Position numbers and translations under genes: made by a program. This document shows, in pieces, positions 30,916 through 35,812 of a stretch of 35,812 nt of DNA; within the stretch, counting starts at the first letter, position 1; each line of letters begins with the position of its first letter. The stretch comes from an uncultured Oscillospiraceae bacterium. Its GTDB lineage: Bacteria; Bacillota; Clostridia; Oscillospirales; Oscillospiraceae. Location: the NCBI GenBank assembly GCA_947625355.1, contig CANQOA010000018.1, positions 1-35,812 of the forward strand, given 5' to 3'. The notes beneath the pieces were generated by a model that ran no database searches, was not told the origin of the DNA, and worked only from the letters and a program-made list of their open reading frames with translations.

Positions 30916-31113
30916 TTACTTCTTCTTGTCGAACGCCGGGTTGACGGCGTATACGTTGCGCTGGTCCATCTTGGCGGTGGCGATGCCCATGGCCTCGCCG
31001 AAGCGCTGGAAATGGACCACCTCCCGCTCCCGCAAAAAGCGCATCACGTCGATCACGTCCGGATCGTCCGCCATGCGCAGGATGTTGTCATAGGTCACCC
31101 GGGCCTTCTGCTC
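30916..31113 (-). pseudogene. cotJC: cotJC 3' part (spore-coat manganese catalase, C-terminal fragment)
   Basis: This is the downstream piece of the interrupted cotJC gene. It encodes EQKARVTYDNILRMADDPD, followed by the REREVVHFQRFGEAMG motif with a Glu and the last manganese-ligand His, and ends FDKKK. The mobile element joins at the core TC (31112-31113), which supplies the first two bases of the glutamate codon. Read from the other side of the element, the frame continues exactly. On its own this piece has no promoter or ribosome-binding site, so it should be silent unless the element is excised. Confidence 0.9.
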
Positions 31114-31136
31114 TGGTGCGACTGGATAAAGACAAC
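31112..31136. repeat. Left attachment junction of the cotJC element
   Basis: The core TC (31112-31113) is followed inward by a 23-base arm (31114-31136) beginning TGGTGCGAC and ending GACAAC. It ends exactly where the recombinase stop codon begins (31137). The arm matches the opposite end in inverted orientation at 17 of 23 positions. Confidence 0.8.
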
Positions 31137-32690
31137 TTAAAAATTCCAGTGTATCTCGATGGGTACGTCCCGTGTGTCGGGAATGCGTTTGCCCACGGTG
31201 ATGTGGTCGATCAGCACTTCCACGGTCTCCCGGTCAAGGTGTTCCAGGTTGGTGTACTGCTCAATGAGTTCCCGGCGGTTGTCGCCTGCGGCGATCCTGG
31301 CGTCAATGGCATTGATCTGCTTTTCCGTGTCGGCGACGGCCAGTTCTAACCGTTTGCGTTCCTCGGTGAAATCACGTGACATGTCCAGATAATCGCCCTC
31401 GGACAACAGACCCTTGACCTTATCCAGATAAAGGTCCCGGATGCCTTTGGTGTACTCGGCGATCCGCTTTTGATATGCCGTTATCTCGGACTGTAGACTG
31501 GACTTTTGCTCTTGCAGGTCTGTACAAAACTCGATCTGTCGGGCCAGTTCGTCCTTGTCCAAATACTCCGCCGTCAGCCGGTTCAGTTCTGTCAGCACCA
31601 TCTGTTCCAGTTTGTCAACGGCGATGAACGCGCCCTCGCAGGCGTCCTTTGACACGTGGCGGGTGCAGCATTGTAGATAGTGGCGGCCCCGGTTCTTGGA
31701 TGAACGCATGACATAGCTACAGCCGGCGCATCGGGCTTTTCGGGCAAACAGCCCGATTTTGCCGGAGTCAAAAGGCTTGGCTCTCTGCTCCCGCAGGGCC
31801 TTTACCGCGTCCCACAACGGCCGGTCAATGATGGGCTCATGAGTGCCCTCTACCACATACCACTGGTCTTTGGGGCGTGGGCGGCATTGCTTCGTCTTGT
31901 AGGACACGCTGCCGTACTTTCCCTGTACCATGTTGCCGATGTACATTTCGTTTTCCAGCATATCCGCGATGGCGAAGTATTTCCAGAGGGTGCTGTTCTT
32001 TGTGGCAGGCTGCATATAGCGCAGACCGTGCAGACGCTTATACTCCGTGGGATTCGGTATGCCCCGGTCGTTGAGCATCCGGGCGATGGCGGTCTTGCCG
32101 TAGCCCTGGGCATAGAGGGTAAATACCTCCCGGACAACGGCGGCAGCCTCCTCGTCGATAATAAGGTGGCCTTTCTGGTCGGGGTCTTTCTTGTAGCCGT
32201 AGAGAGCAAAGGCCCCAATGTGAAAGCCGTTTTCTCGGCGACTCGTCAGTACGCTGCGAATATTCTCGGACATATCCTCCAGATACCATTCATTCACTAG
32301 CCCGTTGATCTGGCGGGATTTTTTGTTGCCCTTGTTGGCGGTGTCGGCGTTGTCCACGATGCTGATAAAACGGATGCCCCAGAGGGGAAAGAGGCCGTGT
32401 ATGTACTTCTCCACCAGCTCCAGTTCGCGGGTAAAGCGCGATTGGGTCTTGCAAAGAATGATGTCAAATCTCCGCTGCTCCGCGTCCCGCAAAAGCCGGT
32501 TGAACTCCGGTCGCCGCCGGTCCGCTCCAGTGTAATCGTCGTCGCTATAAATGTTGTAAAGCTCCCACCCCTGTTCCATGACGTATTGCAGCAGCATGGT
32601 CTTTTGGTTTTGTATGCTGTTGCTGTCATCGGTCGCGAATTGTTTGTTTCTATCTTCTTCGGATAAGCGGCAATAAATAGCTACCTTCAT
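31137..32690 (-). CDS. Large serine recombinase of the cotJC element
   Basis: This 517-residue site-specific recombinase is presumably the enzyme that inserted the element and could excise it. The resolvase domain begins MKVAIYCRLSEEDRNK with catalytic S10. It continues with SDDDYTGADRRRPEFNRLL and KTQSRFTRELELVEKYI. The recombinase domain contains FALYGYKKDP, NEMYIGNMVQGKYGS and VVEGTHEPIID. A zinc ribbon follows (CAGC, then CC and a further C), and the C-terminal third is a coiled coil. The start at 32690 follows an AGGAGAAAGGAA ribosome-binding region; an upstream in-frame ATG at 32717 lies before it. Its stop is 23 bases from the element end. Expression is probably controlled by the palindromic promoter region upstream. 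Confidence 0.94.
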   Translation of the reverse strand: MKVAIYCRLSEEDRNKQFATDDSNSIQNQKTMLLQYVMEQGWELYNIYSDDDYTGADRRRPEFNRLLRDAEQRRFDIILCKTQSRFTRELELVEKYIHGLFPLWGIRFISIVDNADTANKGNKKSRQINGLVNEWYLEDMSENIRSVLTSRRENGFHIGAFALYGYKKDPDQKGHLIIDEEAAAVVREVFTLYAQGYGKTAIARMLNDRGIPNPTEYKRLHGLRYMQPATKNSTLWKYFAIADMLENEMYIGNMVQGKYGSVSYKTKQCRPRPKDQWYVVEGTHEPIIDRPLWDAVKALREQRAKPFDSGKIGLFARKARCAGCSYVMRSSKNRGRHYLQCCTRHVSKDACEGAFIAVDKLEQMVLTELNRLTAEYLDKDELARQIEFCTDLQEQKSSLQSEITAYQKRIAEYTKGIRDLYLDKVKGLLSEGDYLDMSRDFTEERKRLELAVADTEKQINAIDARIAAGDNRRELIEQYTNLEHLDRETVEVLIDHITVGKRIPDTRDVPIEIHWNF

Positions 32691-32713
32691 GTTCCTTTCT
32701 CCTAAGAGATAGA

Positions 32714-32763
32714 ACAAGCTGTCTCCCTATGAATATTATAACATAGGGAACGCAGCTTGTCAT
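32714..32763 (-). promoter_or_regulatory. Recombinase promoter embedded in a large palindrome
   Basis: On the minus strand ATGACA (complement of 32758-32763) and TATAAT (complement of 32735-32740) are 17 bases apart. The -10 box lies at the centre of a two-part inverted repeat: ACAAGCTG (32714-32721) with CAGCTTGT (32753-32760), and CCCTATG (32725-32731) with CATAGGG (32742-32748). This is well placed for repression, perhaps by the recombinase itself or a host regulator. Confidence 0.55.
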
Positions 32764-33102
32764 TTTTTCGGGCAGCTTTCCGCGCTTATCTGTCTTTCTC
32801 TCTCTCGCCGAGTGATAAGCTCTATCCATTTTGCAGTGAAGGTGTCTCTGCATATCGCGTTCCCGCCGCTTTTGAAAACGCTCTTGCAGTTCGTTGCGTG
32901 GTGCTGATTTTTTGTCAAATAAGCATTGCTCCTTTCCGTGTTTGGGTAGTACAGCCTATGAGACTGCCTCTGTCGTCTACTACGACAACGGAAGGGCAAA
33001 ATAACAGAAAATCCCCAAAAGAAGCCAAAACTTTCCTGAATGATACAGGTTTTGACAAATTAAATCTCACGGTGAGACGCATTTCCGGGGATGATAGATG
33101 GA
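32764..33102. other. Intergenic region with a possible gene remnant
   Basis: No convincing gene. A plus-strand frame ending at 33113 has no ribosome-binding site and a non-protein-like first half. Its last part (about 33030-33113, reading FDKLNLTVRRISGDDRWIDG) shares the VRRI segment, in the same frame, with the partial gene at the left edge of the window. It may be the degraded 3' end of a gene common to such elements. Confidence 0.4.
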
Positions 33103-33131
33103 TTGATGGATAGACCCCTGTGTGGTATAAT
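33103..33131 (+). promoter_or_regulatory. Promoter of the MBL-fold gene
   Basis: TTGATG (33103-33108) and TATAAT (33126-33131) are 17 bases apart, 35 bases before the start codon. Confidence 0.65.
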
Positions 33132-33166
33132 GGTCACGCATTTCTGGAGGACTGGAAGAACGATCT

Positions 33167-33931
33167 ATGAATGATTGGTTTACAATTGAACAAATCGACG
33201 CAGATACTTACGCGATCAGTGAGTACAAGCATTGGGAAGAAACACACTGCTATCTTCTCTGCGGAACGGACAAAGTGATTCTGATCGATACAGGCTTGGG
33301 CGTCGCCAATATTCGGGAAGTGGTGGCCAGCCTTACCGCACTCCCCGTCATGGCGGTCACCACCCATGTCCATTGGGACCATATTGGCGGACACAAGTAT
33401 TTTGACAGAATTGCGGTACATGAAGCGGAGACAGATTGGCTTTCTGTCAAGTTTCCGATACCATTGCCAGTGGTCAAGAGCAATCTGATGCGTGAGACTT
33501 GTGATTTTCCAAGCGGCTTTTCTATTGATGACTACGAGCTTTTTCAGGGTGCGCCGCAAAGAATTCTGCATGATAGGGATCGTCTGGACCTAGGTAACAG
33601 GCAGTTGACAGTCATACATACACCCGGACACTCTCCCGGTCACTGTTGCTTCTATGAAGCGAAGAGAAAGTATCTGTATTCCGGTGATTTGATCTATCGG
33701 GGCTGTCTTGATGCGTTTTATCCGACAACCGACCCGCAGAAATTCTGGCAGTCTGTGAAGAGAGTCCAGAAACTCGATGTAGCAAAAATCATGCCTGGCC
33801 ATCATCAGCTGAATATCCCTGTAGACCTAATCGATAGAATAGAAAAAGGATTTAGTGAATTGGCAGCTTCCGGTAAACTGGAACAAGGAAACGGCATATT
33901 TGATTTTGGCGACTTCAAAATCAATACCTGA
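33167..33931 (+). CDS. Metallo-beta-lactamase-fold hydrolase (element cargo)
   Basis: A 254-residue MBL-fold protein with a complete metal site: HVHWDH (H67, H69, D71, H72), H155 in TPGHSPGH, D174 in YSGDL and H212 in MPGHH. The fold covers hydrolases of thioesters, lactones, phosphodiesters and lactams. The HWDH form with a glyoxalase-II-like layout gives no reliable substrate. No signal peptide is visible, so it is cytoplasmic. It has its own promoter and a hairpin terminator inside the element, so it is independent cargo. Composition is more AT-rich than the chromosome, in line with transfer. It could be a detoxification or resistance gene; that is speculation. Confidence 0.88.
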   Translation: MNDWFTIEQIDADTYAISEYKHWEETHCYLLCGTDKVILIDTGLGVANIREVVASLTALPVMAVTTHVHWDHIGGHKYFDRIAVHEAETDWLSVKFPIPLPVVKSNLMRETCDFPSGFSIDDYELFQGAPQRILHDRDRLDLGNRQLTVIHTPGHSPGHCCFYEAKRKYLYSGDLIYRGCLDAFYPTTDPQKFWQSVKRVQKLDVAKIMPGHHQLNIPVDLIDRIEKGFSELAASGKLEQGNGIFDFGDFKINT

Positions 33932-33947
33932 ACCCATTATATGCTGG

Positions 33948-33974
33948 AAAAGCCCGCGTTAGCGGGCTTGTGTG
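33948..33974 (+). terminator. Terminator after the MBL-fold gene
   Basis: AAGCCCGC (33950-33957) pairs perfectly with GCGGGCTT (33962-33969) across GTTA. Only a weak T-rich tail follows. Confidence 0.65.
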
Positions 33975-33998
33975 CTGTTATCCCCTTAAAGACCAAAT

Positions 33999-34104
33999 TT
34001 CCGGCGCGTGGCCTCGGTCAAGGCCCTGCCAGCTTTCGGCTGGCAGGCTCGTTCAGCGATTGCGACAGCAATCGCCAAGCCTTGACAGAGACCGCACGCC
34101 GGAA
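33999..34104. repeat. Three-way-junction inverted repeat (branched stem-loop)
   Basis: A 26-base outer arm (33999-34024) is complementary to 34079-34104 at 22 of 26 positions. Inside it lie two perfect hairpins: CCTGCCAGC / GCTGGCAGG (34025-34047, 9 bp) and GCGATTGC / GCAATCGC (34056-34075, 8 bp). The whole folds into a long stem with two arms. It is GC-rich within an AT-rich element. It could be a structured RNA, a protein-binding DNA structure or part of a transfer or replication origin. The only open frames through it are by-products of the repeat. Confidence 0.7.
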
Positions 34105-34140
34105 TATAATTTAGGACAAGGGATAACCGCTCCGCCGTCA

Positions 34141-34202
34141 GGGGCTTGGGGTCTGCCCCAACAAGGTCATTTGGTAGCACAAATGACATACTTGCTATGG
34201 TT
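34141..34202. other. Candidate origin of transfer (oriT-like)
   Basis: Next to the branched repeat lie a TTGGGG/CCCCAA hairpin (34146-34161) and a perfect 8-bp inverted repeat, GTCATTTG/CAAATGAC, with a 6-base loop (34166-34187), directly followed by ATACTTGCTATGG. An inverted repeat with a short conserved sequence on one side is the usual layout of a relaxase nick site. The element has no relaxase, so it would depend on one supplied by another element. Recognition is by layout only. Confidence 0.35.
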
Positions 34203-34219
34203 AGAAATGGGATGCTAAT

Positions 34220-35206
34220 ATGAAATACGGAAAAATTCGTCCTGTGTCGCATATTACCGGTGAAATAGGTGTTGAAATACTCAAAAGAAAAATCCCGCAA
34301 GAGTGGGTAGTGCGGGAGTATCATCCTGATTACGGTATAGATTTAAGTATAGAAATCTTTACAGCGTATATGGACGATTATATTACTAGTGGTGAGCATC
34401 TGCTTTTTCAAGTGAAAAGCACAAAAAACTTGACCAAGAAAATAATTGAGATACCCCCACGTGTGAATGTAGAAAAAGGGAATCATACAATAGATGGAGA
34501 ATTAATATCTATGGAAGTAGTAACATTTCCGATTGATACAGGATTATTATCGGTTGTTGAAAAAATGGGAAGCGCCGTACCGGTCATACTGGCCGTTGTT
34601 GACATTACAACAGAAGCAATATATTTTGTGTGTCTGAATGACTATATAGAAAAAATTGTTGTCCCTGATGATCCAGATTACACACACTATCAAACAAAAA
34701 CCGTTTGCCTTCCTACGAAAAACTGTATCAATGGTGAAGCCGGCATACGTATGCTGGAGTGGTACGCAAAACGGCCAAAGCTATATGCTTTGTTTAATAA
34801 AATCAATTACCAAAAAAGTGAATTAAATTATTACTACGGGCAACAGTTAATTGATATTGCTCAACACTTTCTCAAAATATTACTTAGGTATGACGCTTGG
34901 GATGCAGGCTATTACTTTCCGATCATGACTGATATGAGGGAAGAAATTGAATTCTATTTATCTCATGGCTTTACCAAAGATGCTGAACGCAGAAACGAGC
35001 AGTTGATTGCAAAAGGAATTGATATTGATAATGAAATGTGTGAAGCAACATGGTGTGCTGATCTAGTTCCCATACGGTATGCAAACATAATACAGGGCAT
35101 ACATCAATTATGGGAGAAGTTAGATACCATTGACGGCATATTTGAAGAGTCTTGTAAAGAAGCTTTTCTTCCCACATATATGGGAGCGAAAATTTCCAAT
35201 ACTTGA
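34220..35206 (+). CDS. DUF4365-type nuclease-like protein (element cargo)
   Basis: A 328-residue protein whose first part (about 8-160) resembles DUF4365, a PD-(D/E)xK restriction-endonuclease-like fold. The core pattern is present: D41 in YGIDLSIEIF, E45, and Q64-V65-K66 in LLFQVKS. The C-terminal half (about 165-328) is helical and unrecognised. The gene is strongly AT-rich compared with the chromosome, a sign of recent transfer. Proteins of this type are often found in mobile elements and near defence genes, so a role in defence against phage or plasmids is plausible but unproven. No clear ribosome-binding site is visible before ATG 34220, and the structured region lies directly upstream. 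Confidence 0.75.
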   Translation: MKYGKIRPVSHITGEIGVEILKRKIPQEWVVREYHPDYGIDLSIEIFTAYMDDYITSGEHLLFQVKSTKNLTKKIIEIPPRVNVEKGNHTIDGELISMEVVTFPIDTGLLSVVEKMGSAVPVILAVVDITTEAIYFVCLNDYIEKIVVPDDPDYTHYQTKTVCLPTKNCINGEAGIRMLEWYAKRPKLYALFNKINYQKSELNYYYGQQLIDIAQHFLKILLRYDAWDAGYYFPIMTDMREEIEFYLSHGFTKDAERRNEQLIAKGIDIDNEMCEATWCADLVPIRYANIIQGIHQLWEKLDTIDGIFEESCKEAFLPTYMGAKISNT

Positions 35207-35255
35207 GTGGTTCTTGAGTTGTTAGGGGCCAGCTTGTCCTATCGTATTTCCTCAT

Positions 35256-35280
35256 GTTGTCCTTTCCTGGTCGTACCATC
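35256..35280. repeat. Right attachment junction of the cotJC element
   Basis: The 23-base arm 35256-35278 begins GTTGTCC and ends GTCGTACCA, followed by the core TC (35279-35280), after which cotJC resumes. Its reverse complement matches the left arm at 17 of 23 positions, including the shared CGAC and ACAAC blocks. Confidence 0.8.
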
Positions 35281-35598
35281 CGCGCCCATGTCCTCAGCCA
35301 GGTCCGCGATCACGTCGCCCTTGACCTGGAAGGTGGCGGCGCTGTAAGGCCAGCCGCCTGCCGCCTGGGCATAGATGCCGGCGGTATGGTCCACGAAGTA
35401 GTCCTGGAAGCCGGCCTTCTCCACCTGCTCCACGGACATGTTCCGGGTCAGCTGGTGAACGACCGTGCCCACGATCTCCAGATGTGCCAGTTCCTCCACG
35501 CCGATGTCGGTGAGGACGGCCTTGATCTGGTCATAGGGCATGGAATAGCGCTGGCTCAGATACCGCAGGGAGGCGGAAAGCTCGCCGTCTGGACCACC
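35279..35598 (-). pseudogene. cotJC: cotJC central part (spore-coat manganese catalase, truncated at both ends)
   Basis: The frame encodes GGPDGELSASLRYLSQRYS, then TDIGVEELAHLEIVGTVVHQL and ADLAEDMGA. These are ferritin-like helices with manganese-ligand glutamates (GEL and EEL) and the histidine of ELAH. At 35280 it runs into the element and stops at 35239 after a few foreign residues. Rejoined to the 3' part it gives about 171 codons, against about 190 for CotJC proteins. The missing part is the N terminus (family form near MWVYEKKLxYP): directly upstream of GGPDG there is AT-rich sequence and another gene's terminator, with no start codon or ribosome-binding site. The gene is therefore broken twice. 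cotJA and cotJB are not visible. Confidence 0.88.
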
Positions 35599-35621
35599 TT
35601 TTCTCAATAACCTACTATAGC
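35599..35621. other. Unexplained AT-rich junction at the 5' end of cotJC
   Basis: About 23 bases of AT-rich sequence separate the truncated cotJC from the neighbouring gene's terminator. On the minus strand the junction reads GTGGTCCA-GA-CGGCGAG; the CCA-GA matches the CCA-GA at the left junction of the 4.2-kb element (GCACCA-GA-GCAG). This looks like half of another attachment site or a deletion scar. Confidence 0.4.
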
Positions 35622-35656
35622 AAAAAATGAACCCCGGCGCCATATCGGCGCCGGGG
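35622..35656 (-). terminator. Terminator of the minus-strand gene at the right edge
   Basis: CCCCGGCGCC (35632-35641) pairs perfectly with GGCGCCGGGG (35647-35656). On the minus strand it is followed by TTCATTTTTTG, a good intrinsic terminator. Confidence 0.88.
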
Positions 35657-35677
35657 ATGCTTTTTCTCATCTTCTTC

Positions 35678-35812
35678 TCACTTCTCCAGACCCAGCACAT
35701 CCTCCGCCGGCCTCCCATTCACGCTTATGCACTGGCCGAAGCGGCCGTCGTGCTTGGGGTTGAACACGGCCTTGTTCACTGCCTGGACCTGGGGCGCGGT
35801 GGACGCGGTGAC
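35678..35812 (-). CDS. C-terminal end of an unidentified gene (partial)
   Basis: A minus-strand frame enters from the right edge and ends at TGA (complement of 35678-35680). The 44 visible residues include VNKAVFNPKHDGRFGQC and end GRPAEDVLGLEK. GC-rich codons match the host chromosome rather than the element. I do not recognise the family. A strong terminator follows 22 bases later. It lies directly upstream of the truncated cotJC, where cotJB would normally be expected, but it does not resemble CotJB. Confidence 0.6.
   Translation of the reverse strand, partial: VTASTAPQVQAVNKAVFNPKHDGRFGQCISVNGRPAEDVLGLEK

Follow-up and report, generated by a model that had tools for sequence, protein, structure and literature searches.

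A mobile serine-recombinase element recurs at one codon of the spore-coat catalase gene cotJC across Clostridia and is probably excised in the mother cell

The DNA analysed here (the window, 35,812 nt) is contig C18 of the 2.1-Mb genome G000 of an uncultured Oscillospiraceae bacterium (78 contigs, 96.75% complete), and it carried a serine-recombinase element, here called element A, inside the spore-coat catalase gene cotJC. Element A is a widespread, mobile, single-target gene-intervening element, and cotJC hosts several such elements. We consider it probable that element A is a mobile, skin-like element of cotJC, removed in the mother cell once a recombination directionality factor (RDF) under sigma-E-type control directs its recombinase towards excision; as a mechanism, excision in the mother cell is most likely.

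Element A extended over positions 31114..35278 (4,165 bp, or 4,167 bp with one copy of the GA core) and was inserted in cotJC codon 136 (site A), as judged from its sequence and from junctions compared with the intact gene of a congener (G013) and with six other occupied congeners. A first-pass annotation of the window had placed a removable segment at 31114-35280 between two same-strand cotJC pieces, and both pieces indeed matched PF05067: a 3' piece of codons 136-200 (30916..31113, minus strand; Mn_catalase, E 2.1e-10) with the GA core at 31112-31113, and a middle piece of codons ~30-136 (35279..35598, minus strand; E 1.5e-22) ending in the GA core at 35279-35280. Compared with intact G013, 65/65 residues of the 3' piece were the same and the middle piece had 92% DNA identity. 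The shared GA core (cotJC strand) was borne out by the junctions of all seven occupied congeners, G000 included, and the scarless removal foreseen by the annotation, giving GCG|GAG CAG in frame, was confirmed by the intact G013 gene, which has the predicted joined sequence, and by the joined G000 gene, which is open and encodes a 200-aa CotJC. Empty sites with exactly this junction were found in congeners. The proposed 23-base inverted repeat was also reproduced, the attachment-site arm on the cotJC 3'-piece side (31114..31136) matching its inverted partner on the 5' side (35256..35278) at 17 of 23 positions. The split at codon 136 therefore stood, but not the idea of a single cut, as codons 1-31 sit on contig C7 because a second serine-recombinase element (element B, below) occupies codon 31. 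The interrupted gene is a mother-cell sporulation target, located downstream of a CotJA/CotJB gene in G000, and cotJC of Bacillus subtilis is listed as sigma-E-dependent (PMC3416734; here and below, published systems are described from the available parts of the cited texts). Sporulation of the host was judged from a SpoIIID homologue (106.1 bits, under the cut-off of 111.5) and two SigE/SigK-like sigma factors (254 and 250 bits, under the cut-off of 298.65, with a model that also matched 11 of 14 controls, none above cut-off).

The same cut recurred far beyond this genome. Relatives of the recombinase were collected from public genomes, the best 80 of 339 being kept, and their flanks were searched with intact CotJC proteins; five of the 80 loci (L034-L037 and L048) belonged to congeners (G032, G002, G008, G033 and G025). 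A cotJC half cut at codon 136 was present in the fetched flank of 73 loci: in 58 the 3' half lay past the recombinase and on its strand (mostly at <300 bp, a few up to ~4 kb), in 14 the 5' half occupied that place on the other strand, and in L104 the 5' half was on the recombinase's other side; no cotJC half occurred within the fetched flank of the remaining seven. A PF05067 search of the other 75 genomes found a piece starting at profile position 141-150 in 72 of them (counted by eye), only a 5' piece in two (G069 and G134) and no piece in G130, with an additional full-length or nearly full-length cotJC in nine. Hosts span several Clostridia families, isolates among them, and the 80 records name, among others, Roseburia faecis, Clostridium fessum, Blautia sp. 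An249, Parablautia intestinalis, Anaerotignum lactatifermentans, Flintibacter muris and Diplocloster modestus. The junction was GA in 57 of 58 3' halves and in 64 of 68 5' halves (the latter drawn from two overlapping locus sets and thus from fewer than 68 genomes), the remainder being one-codon or gap shifts in the script, and the elements ranged in size from 3.2 to about 40 kb. Within the genus, 7 of 35 genomes encoded the recombinase, and these were exactly the genomes cut at codon 136; it was not found (E <= 1e-100) in the other 28, of which 27 had an uncut site and one (G019) had no cotJC. Empty sites were common, 24 of 34 congeners having one cotJC piece that runs from the start past codon 136. 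That cotJC is cut at this one codon in 73 of 80 loci makes both chance and misassembly unlikely, which answers a concern over misassembly raised in the first-pass annotation.

Element A moves between lineages while keeping to the same codon, as concluded from a conflict of distances between recombinase and cotJC together with near-identical recombinases in different families. In a quick-method tree, Anaerotignum lactatifermentans and Candidatus Hungatella pullicola had identical recombinases, and those of Diplocloster modestus and Clostridium fessum were near-identical. A Mantel test on alignments (56 of 81 rows) gave a weak correlation between the recombinase and the neighbouring cotJC half (rho 0.26; 0 of 500 permutations as high). 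Synonymous divergence (dS) of the recombinase was 0.186 between G029 and G032 vs 0.398 between G029 and G000, and for cotJC this order was reversed (0.543 vs 0.235). Orientation relative to cotJC has also switched, with eight changes by parsimony, at least three of them forced by starred branches. The attachment arms came close to symmetry (several loci, for example, have TGCAATCATATAAGAACAAC together with its reverse complement), so the GA core alone would set the orientation. Related recombinases occurred on nine viral contigs, six of them with cotJC pieces. Phage records held only relatives of <60% identity to the recombinase, and plasmid records likewise except for one 71% match on OY725852.1 (L196), a 23.9-kb 'circular plasmid' of Subdoligranulum variabile. 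We considered this record as an excised circle and rejected the idea; in all likelihood a chromosomal contig was mis-called as a plasmid, because it has a cotJC 3' half followed by chromosome-like genes.

Element A codes for its own site-specific recombinase adjoining an attachment site. This large serine recombinase (517 aa; 31137..32690, minus strand) has the typical three-domain order of Resolvase, Recombinase and Zn ribbon, together with a DUF4368 domain, and is preceded by a sigma-A-like promoter read from the sequence (ATGACA - 17 - TATAAT; 32735..32763, minus strand). Upstream regions were analysed for 74 of 81 recombinase rows, seven having no upstream sequence, and their alignment revealed a conserved small open reading frame (ORF) of ~50 aa upstream of the recombinase. 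A profile built from 14 seeds, themselves part of the set, matched 73 of the 74 loci (all except L083). Mean entropies of 0.84/0.83/1.36 at the three codon positions made the third position the most variable, and the protein consensus begins CKSVFKSGESTTSKEQFTKKWIELINRLEKNK; neither of two members scanned had a Pfam or PHROG match at E 0.01. The window member, recognised by its family match and codon-position entropies, encodes 52 aa from a TTG start (32760..32918, minus strand), with a sigma-E-like motif 5' of it (32957..32980, minus strand). Across the family, 57 of 73 regions had ATA-N15-18-CATA 5' of the small gene, with a spacer of 17 in 55, compared with a mean of 3.8 and a maximum of 10 in 200 dinucleotide shuffles; after thinning at 85% recombinase identity it was found in 22 of 30 (shuffle mean 1.85, maximum 6). 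The recombinase itself had TGAC-N17-20-TAYAMT within <=100 nt before its start in 39 of 74 regions (shuffle mean 0.09, maximum 1). We regard the ~50-aa protein as a candidate RDF and ATA-N17-CATA as its putative sigma-E promoter.

The main reason for reading element A as skin-like is that this promoter logic parallels that of the skin element of Clostridioides difficile, in which the recombinase CD1231 is sigma-A-dependent and constitutive and the RDF CD1234 depends on both sigma-E and SpoIIID (PMC5025042); a mapped sigma-E promoter of that species, before spoIIID, reads ATA-N16-CATATATA (PMC3789822). By analogy, the large serine recombinase, produced from its sigma-A-like promoter, would integrate element A into a single site, cotJC codon 136, and the ~50-aa factor, under sigma-E-type control in the mother cell, would switch it to excision, whereupon the mother-cell chromosome would regain an intact cotJC. 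In G000, the unrelated element B at codon 31 would have to leave too. Both C. difficile skin and element A combine a large serine recombinase behind a sigma-A-type promoter with a small RDF (under sigma-E in skin; a candidate with a sigma-E-like motif in element A) and interrupt a mother-cell gene that removal restores exactly (PMC5025042). They differ in target (sigK vs cotJC), and the element A family, unlike skin, is mobile between families and extends down to 3.18 kb without phage genes; CD1234 (72 aa) and the small protein of element A (~50 aa) are set side by side by size, not sequence. The first-pass annotation had proposed a skin-like or mobile element at this one locus: both readings gained support, as it is a mobile site-specific element with skin-like control features, and the locus proved to belong to a Clostridia-wide set.

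The alternative that survives best, and that we judge unlikely, is that these are plain site-specific mobile elements (integrative and mobilizable elements, integrative and conjugative elements or prophages) for which cotJC is a conserved landing site silent in growth; they would excise only for transfer, and the host would live without CotJC. Identical and near-identical recombinases across genera, cotJC pieces on six of nine related viral contigs, the wide range of element sizes and the report, in a secondary citation, that B. subtilis cotJC mutants have no apparent defect all favour it. It does not explain why a sigma-E-like motif has been kept ahead of the small gene, why nearly all cotJC halves keep open frames or why ratios of nonsynonymous to synonymous divergence (dN/dS) in occupied genomes resemble those of intact genes. 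The joined genes of the eight occupied genus genomes were all 600 nt and open. Median dN/dS (NG86; 27 of 28 genes, one intact gene being <597 nt) was 0.099 for split-split, 0.090 for split-intact and 0.080 for intact-intact comparisons, the medians being taken over pairs with defined, in-range dS (28 of 28, 121 of 152 and 117 of 171, respectively), and against the nearest intact species it was 0.012-0.029 for G000, G002, G009, G029, G032 and G033. Such values would be expected if the elements inserted recently, measured against the species splits, or if cotJC is still in use. Among the 5' halves, 67 of 68 were free of stops; five of 58 3' halves were shorter than 58 codons; of these, two lay at a contig end, the script mis-registered one (L077) and two had an altered tail (L054 and L072).

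Several points weigh against the skin-like reading. The sigma-E-like motif was absent from 16 of 73 loci, the window included, whose own version (GTA-N17-CATA) is one base off the family form ATA-N17-CATA, and the motif statistic is weakened by shared ancestry of the upstream regions, which thinning meets only partly. Two dN/dS values (0.093 for G025 and 0.099 for G008) were not below the intact-intact level, and open cotJC halves could reflect recent insertion because the elements move horizontally. Stops were found in one 5' half (L163), in the element B recombinase of G009 and inside the PF05067 match in six rows of the 75-genome search, in several of which the match overruns the piece. Host selection for excision may be weak, as catalase-coat mutants are reported to have little or no defect: besides the B. 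subtilis report, C. difficile cotCB and cotD mutants are described as having only lowered catalase activity. Finally, DUF4368, which the window recombinase shares with a multi-targeting recombinase clade, is described as typical of that clade (PMC10083194). The cotJC recombinase clade differs from it in using one target, close relatives occupying one codon of one gene in 73 of the best 80 loci, and a text search of the main text of that paper gave 0 occurrences of 'catalase' and of 'spore'.

Dead insertions, with cotJC a pseudogene and the recombinase decaying, are very improbable. The stops in L163 and in the G009 element B recombinase would fit this reading, but all seven element A recombinases of the genus were open (one partial at a contig end), element ends retain the arm and GA pattern, and the joined CotJC proteins of G000 and G029 were identical (dN 0.000) despite a synonymous divergence of 0.235. 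Even less probable is a split CotJC assembled in trans from its pieces without DNA excision: cotJC 3' pieces often lie inside longer open frames, which would fit, yet the 5' frames continue into unrelated element sequence, genomes with three or four cotJC pieces exist and the cuts are located at recombinase attachment sites. Misassembly or chimeric contigs, to which the fragmentation of G000 might point, are hardly credible, because dozens of independent assemblies share this codon and core, and both pieces lie on one contig in isolates such as Blautia sp. An249, Roseburia faecis M72 and Clostridium fessum SNUG30386.

The second cut in G000 was seen in a whole-genome PF05067 search, which located profile positions 1-32 on C7:6135-6230(-) and 30-154 and 148-199 on C18, and no intact cotJC in the assembly (96.75% complete). 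Because the middle piece starts at codon ~30 and the rest lies on C7, position 35598 is a second recombination junction (site B) and not a gene start. An 8-bp repeat, GGTGGTCC (35591..35598), is common to the middle piece and the N-terminal piece on C7 at this junction, and 35599..35812 belongs to element B, inserted at codon 31, and is its inner end, broken off at the contig end. The serine recombinase of element B (511 aa; G000:C7:4594-6129) ends ~6 bp from the site B junction and is ~23.5% identical to that of element A over the matched stretch; the element also carries an S24-peptidase/HTH phage-type repressor. G029 had both cuts as in G000, with element B DNA 98% identical over 1,956 nt, and G009 had the B cut without the A cut. 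Three contig-edge breaks were examined, of which only that of G020 fell at a crossover point: two of its contigs (C5/C1) share a 99-mer ending at gene nt 92, where element B starts in G000, G029 and G009, and one branch of this fork continues as intact cotJC. Such a fork would arise if the sampled population contained both empty and occupied sites, and we take it as a hint of this; a contig with the occupied side at site B was not found in the G020 assembly. The fork in G001 (a 77-nt contig overlap), 6 nt off site A, gave no evidence of mixed states, and the contig edge in G006 was not at a cut site.

In other genomes, cotJC was cut near codon 31 (site B), 64 (site C) and 177 (site D). G086 had four cotJC pieces on four contigs, consistent with cuts at B, C and A, and Blautia sp. 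An249 had three pieces in order on one contig. A class-wide sample contained PF05067 in 105 of 147 genomes, some of those with split pieces also having an intact copy; counted by eye, at least 11 of the 105 had the site C pattern (one piece whose match ended at profile 63-70 plus a second starting at 56-64), and at least five, G000 included, had pieces on both sides of site A. The site C pieces of the single-contig genome G165 were 157 kb apart. Different large serine recombinases lay in the gap at three of the four sites. Near the cuts, 39 intact genes had the invariant residues E35, E64/E65/H68, E136 and H169, which we take to be the metal-ligand motifs of Mn catalase. We dropped the notion that cotJC DNA is at its most conserved where it is cut, since this applied only to site C (rank 5 of 560 windows, against 176 for B, 203 for A and 315 for D). 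It is possible, and we hold it tentatively, that cotJC is a landing gene of Clostridia with at least four sites in ~600 nt near presumed metal-ligand codons, used by different elements each tied to mother-cell excision, so that some species would need two or three DNA splicings for one gene, and a terminally differentiating bacterial cell would routinely edit its chromosome at a gene that shelters mobile DNA. As further observations on these sites, distant serine recombinases were located within the site C gap at L197 (G095), L198 (G100) and L199 (Blautia sp. An249), and site C gaps ranged from about 5 to 157 kb. At site D (FGE|GCA), the new ends of L077, L096 and L112 were almost alike and that of L108 resembled them, which suggests a further element family; the ends at L054, L098 and L074 were different.

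Serine-recombinase elements in sporulation genes have been described before. Like element A, gin in gerE of Bacillus cereus has no phage genes and combines a serine recombinase with a small factor, and its describers propose non-viral mobile elements as gene-intervening elements; gin differs in its 28.6-kb length, three recombinases, 9-bp shared sequence and unrelated target, element A having a single recombinase and a GA core of 2 bp (PMC5595907). SP-beta in spsM, vfbin in spoVFB, vrin in spoVR and yin in yabG also restore their genes on excision, as predicted for element A, and are described with one element per gene, whereas cotJC has up to three sites per genome and four across Clostridia (PMC4191935, PMC10747680). 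In the open-access literature searched, no published element interrupting cotJC came up, the subscription literature being mostly outside this search; the nearest published case is the C. difficile prophage phi027, which lies beside, not inside, a CotJC-like gene downstream of attR (PMC11222575, PMC12122855). TndX, a recombinase of the same kind with ~30% identity across all 517 aa, belongs to the conjugative transposon Tn5397, whereas the cotJC recombinase clade keeps one target. TndX and TnpX use a GA core, as does element A.

In the sources available, sporulation gene-intervening elements have been described case by case, from Bacillus and a few clostridia. The cotJC set comprises one recombinase clade at one codon in several gut families, mobile and with a conserved candidate excision factor. 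If the proposed mechanism is correct, developmental DNA rearrangement would be common among commensal spore-formers, and the split cotJC genes of these genomes would be accounted for. The family might also provide sets of recombinase, RDF and attachment site with natural orientation switches. As cultured commensal isolates carry the element, the idea is directly testable.

Among the recognised genes of element A (recombinase, small ORF and two cargo proteins), none was a phage structural or replication gene, and the 3.18-kb elements had even fewer genes. Assignment of the recombinase to the Ccr type of SCCmec failed, the top NCBIfam score being 120.5 bits (CcrB) vs a cut-off of 900. The first cargo gene (33167..33931, plus strand) encodes a metallo-beta-lactamase-fold hydrolase with hydroxyacylglutathione hydrolase as its top NCBIfam match; all scores against the resistance models checked were far under the cut-offs. 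It was retained beside the recombinase even in the smallest elements (G029 and G032). The second (34220..35206, plus strand) encodes a DUF4365 protein with a weak match to the candidate defence model PDC-M02A (E 5.8e-5); it is present in the G000 element and missing from the 3.18-kb elements of G029 and G032. Perhaps as traces of nested elements, a second ORF resembling the candidate RDF adjoined the element at position 8448 of L063, and a duplicated cotJC tail (codons 173-198) adjoined it at 3265-3342 of L061.

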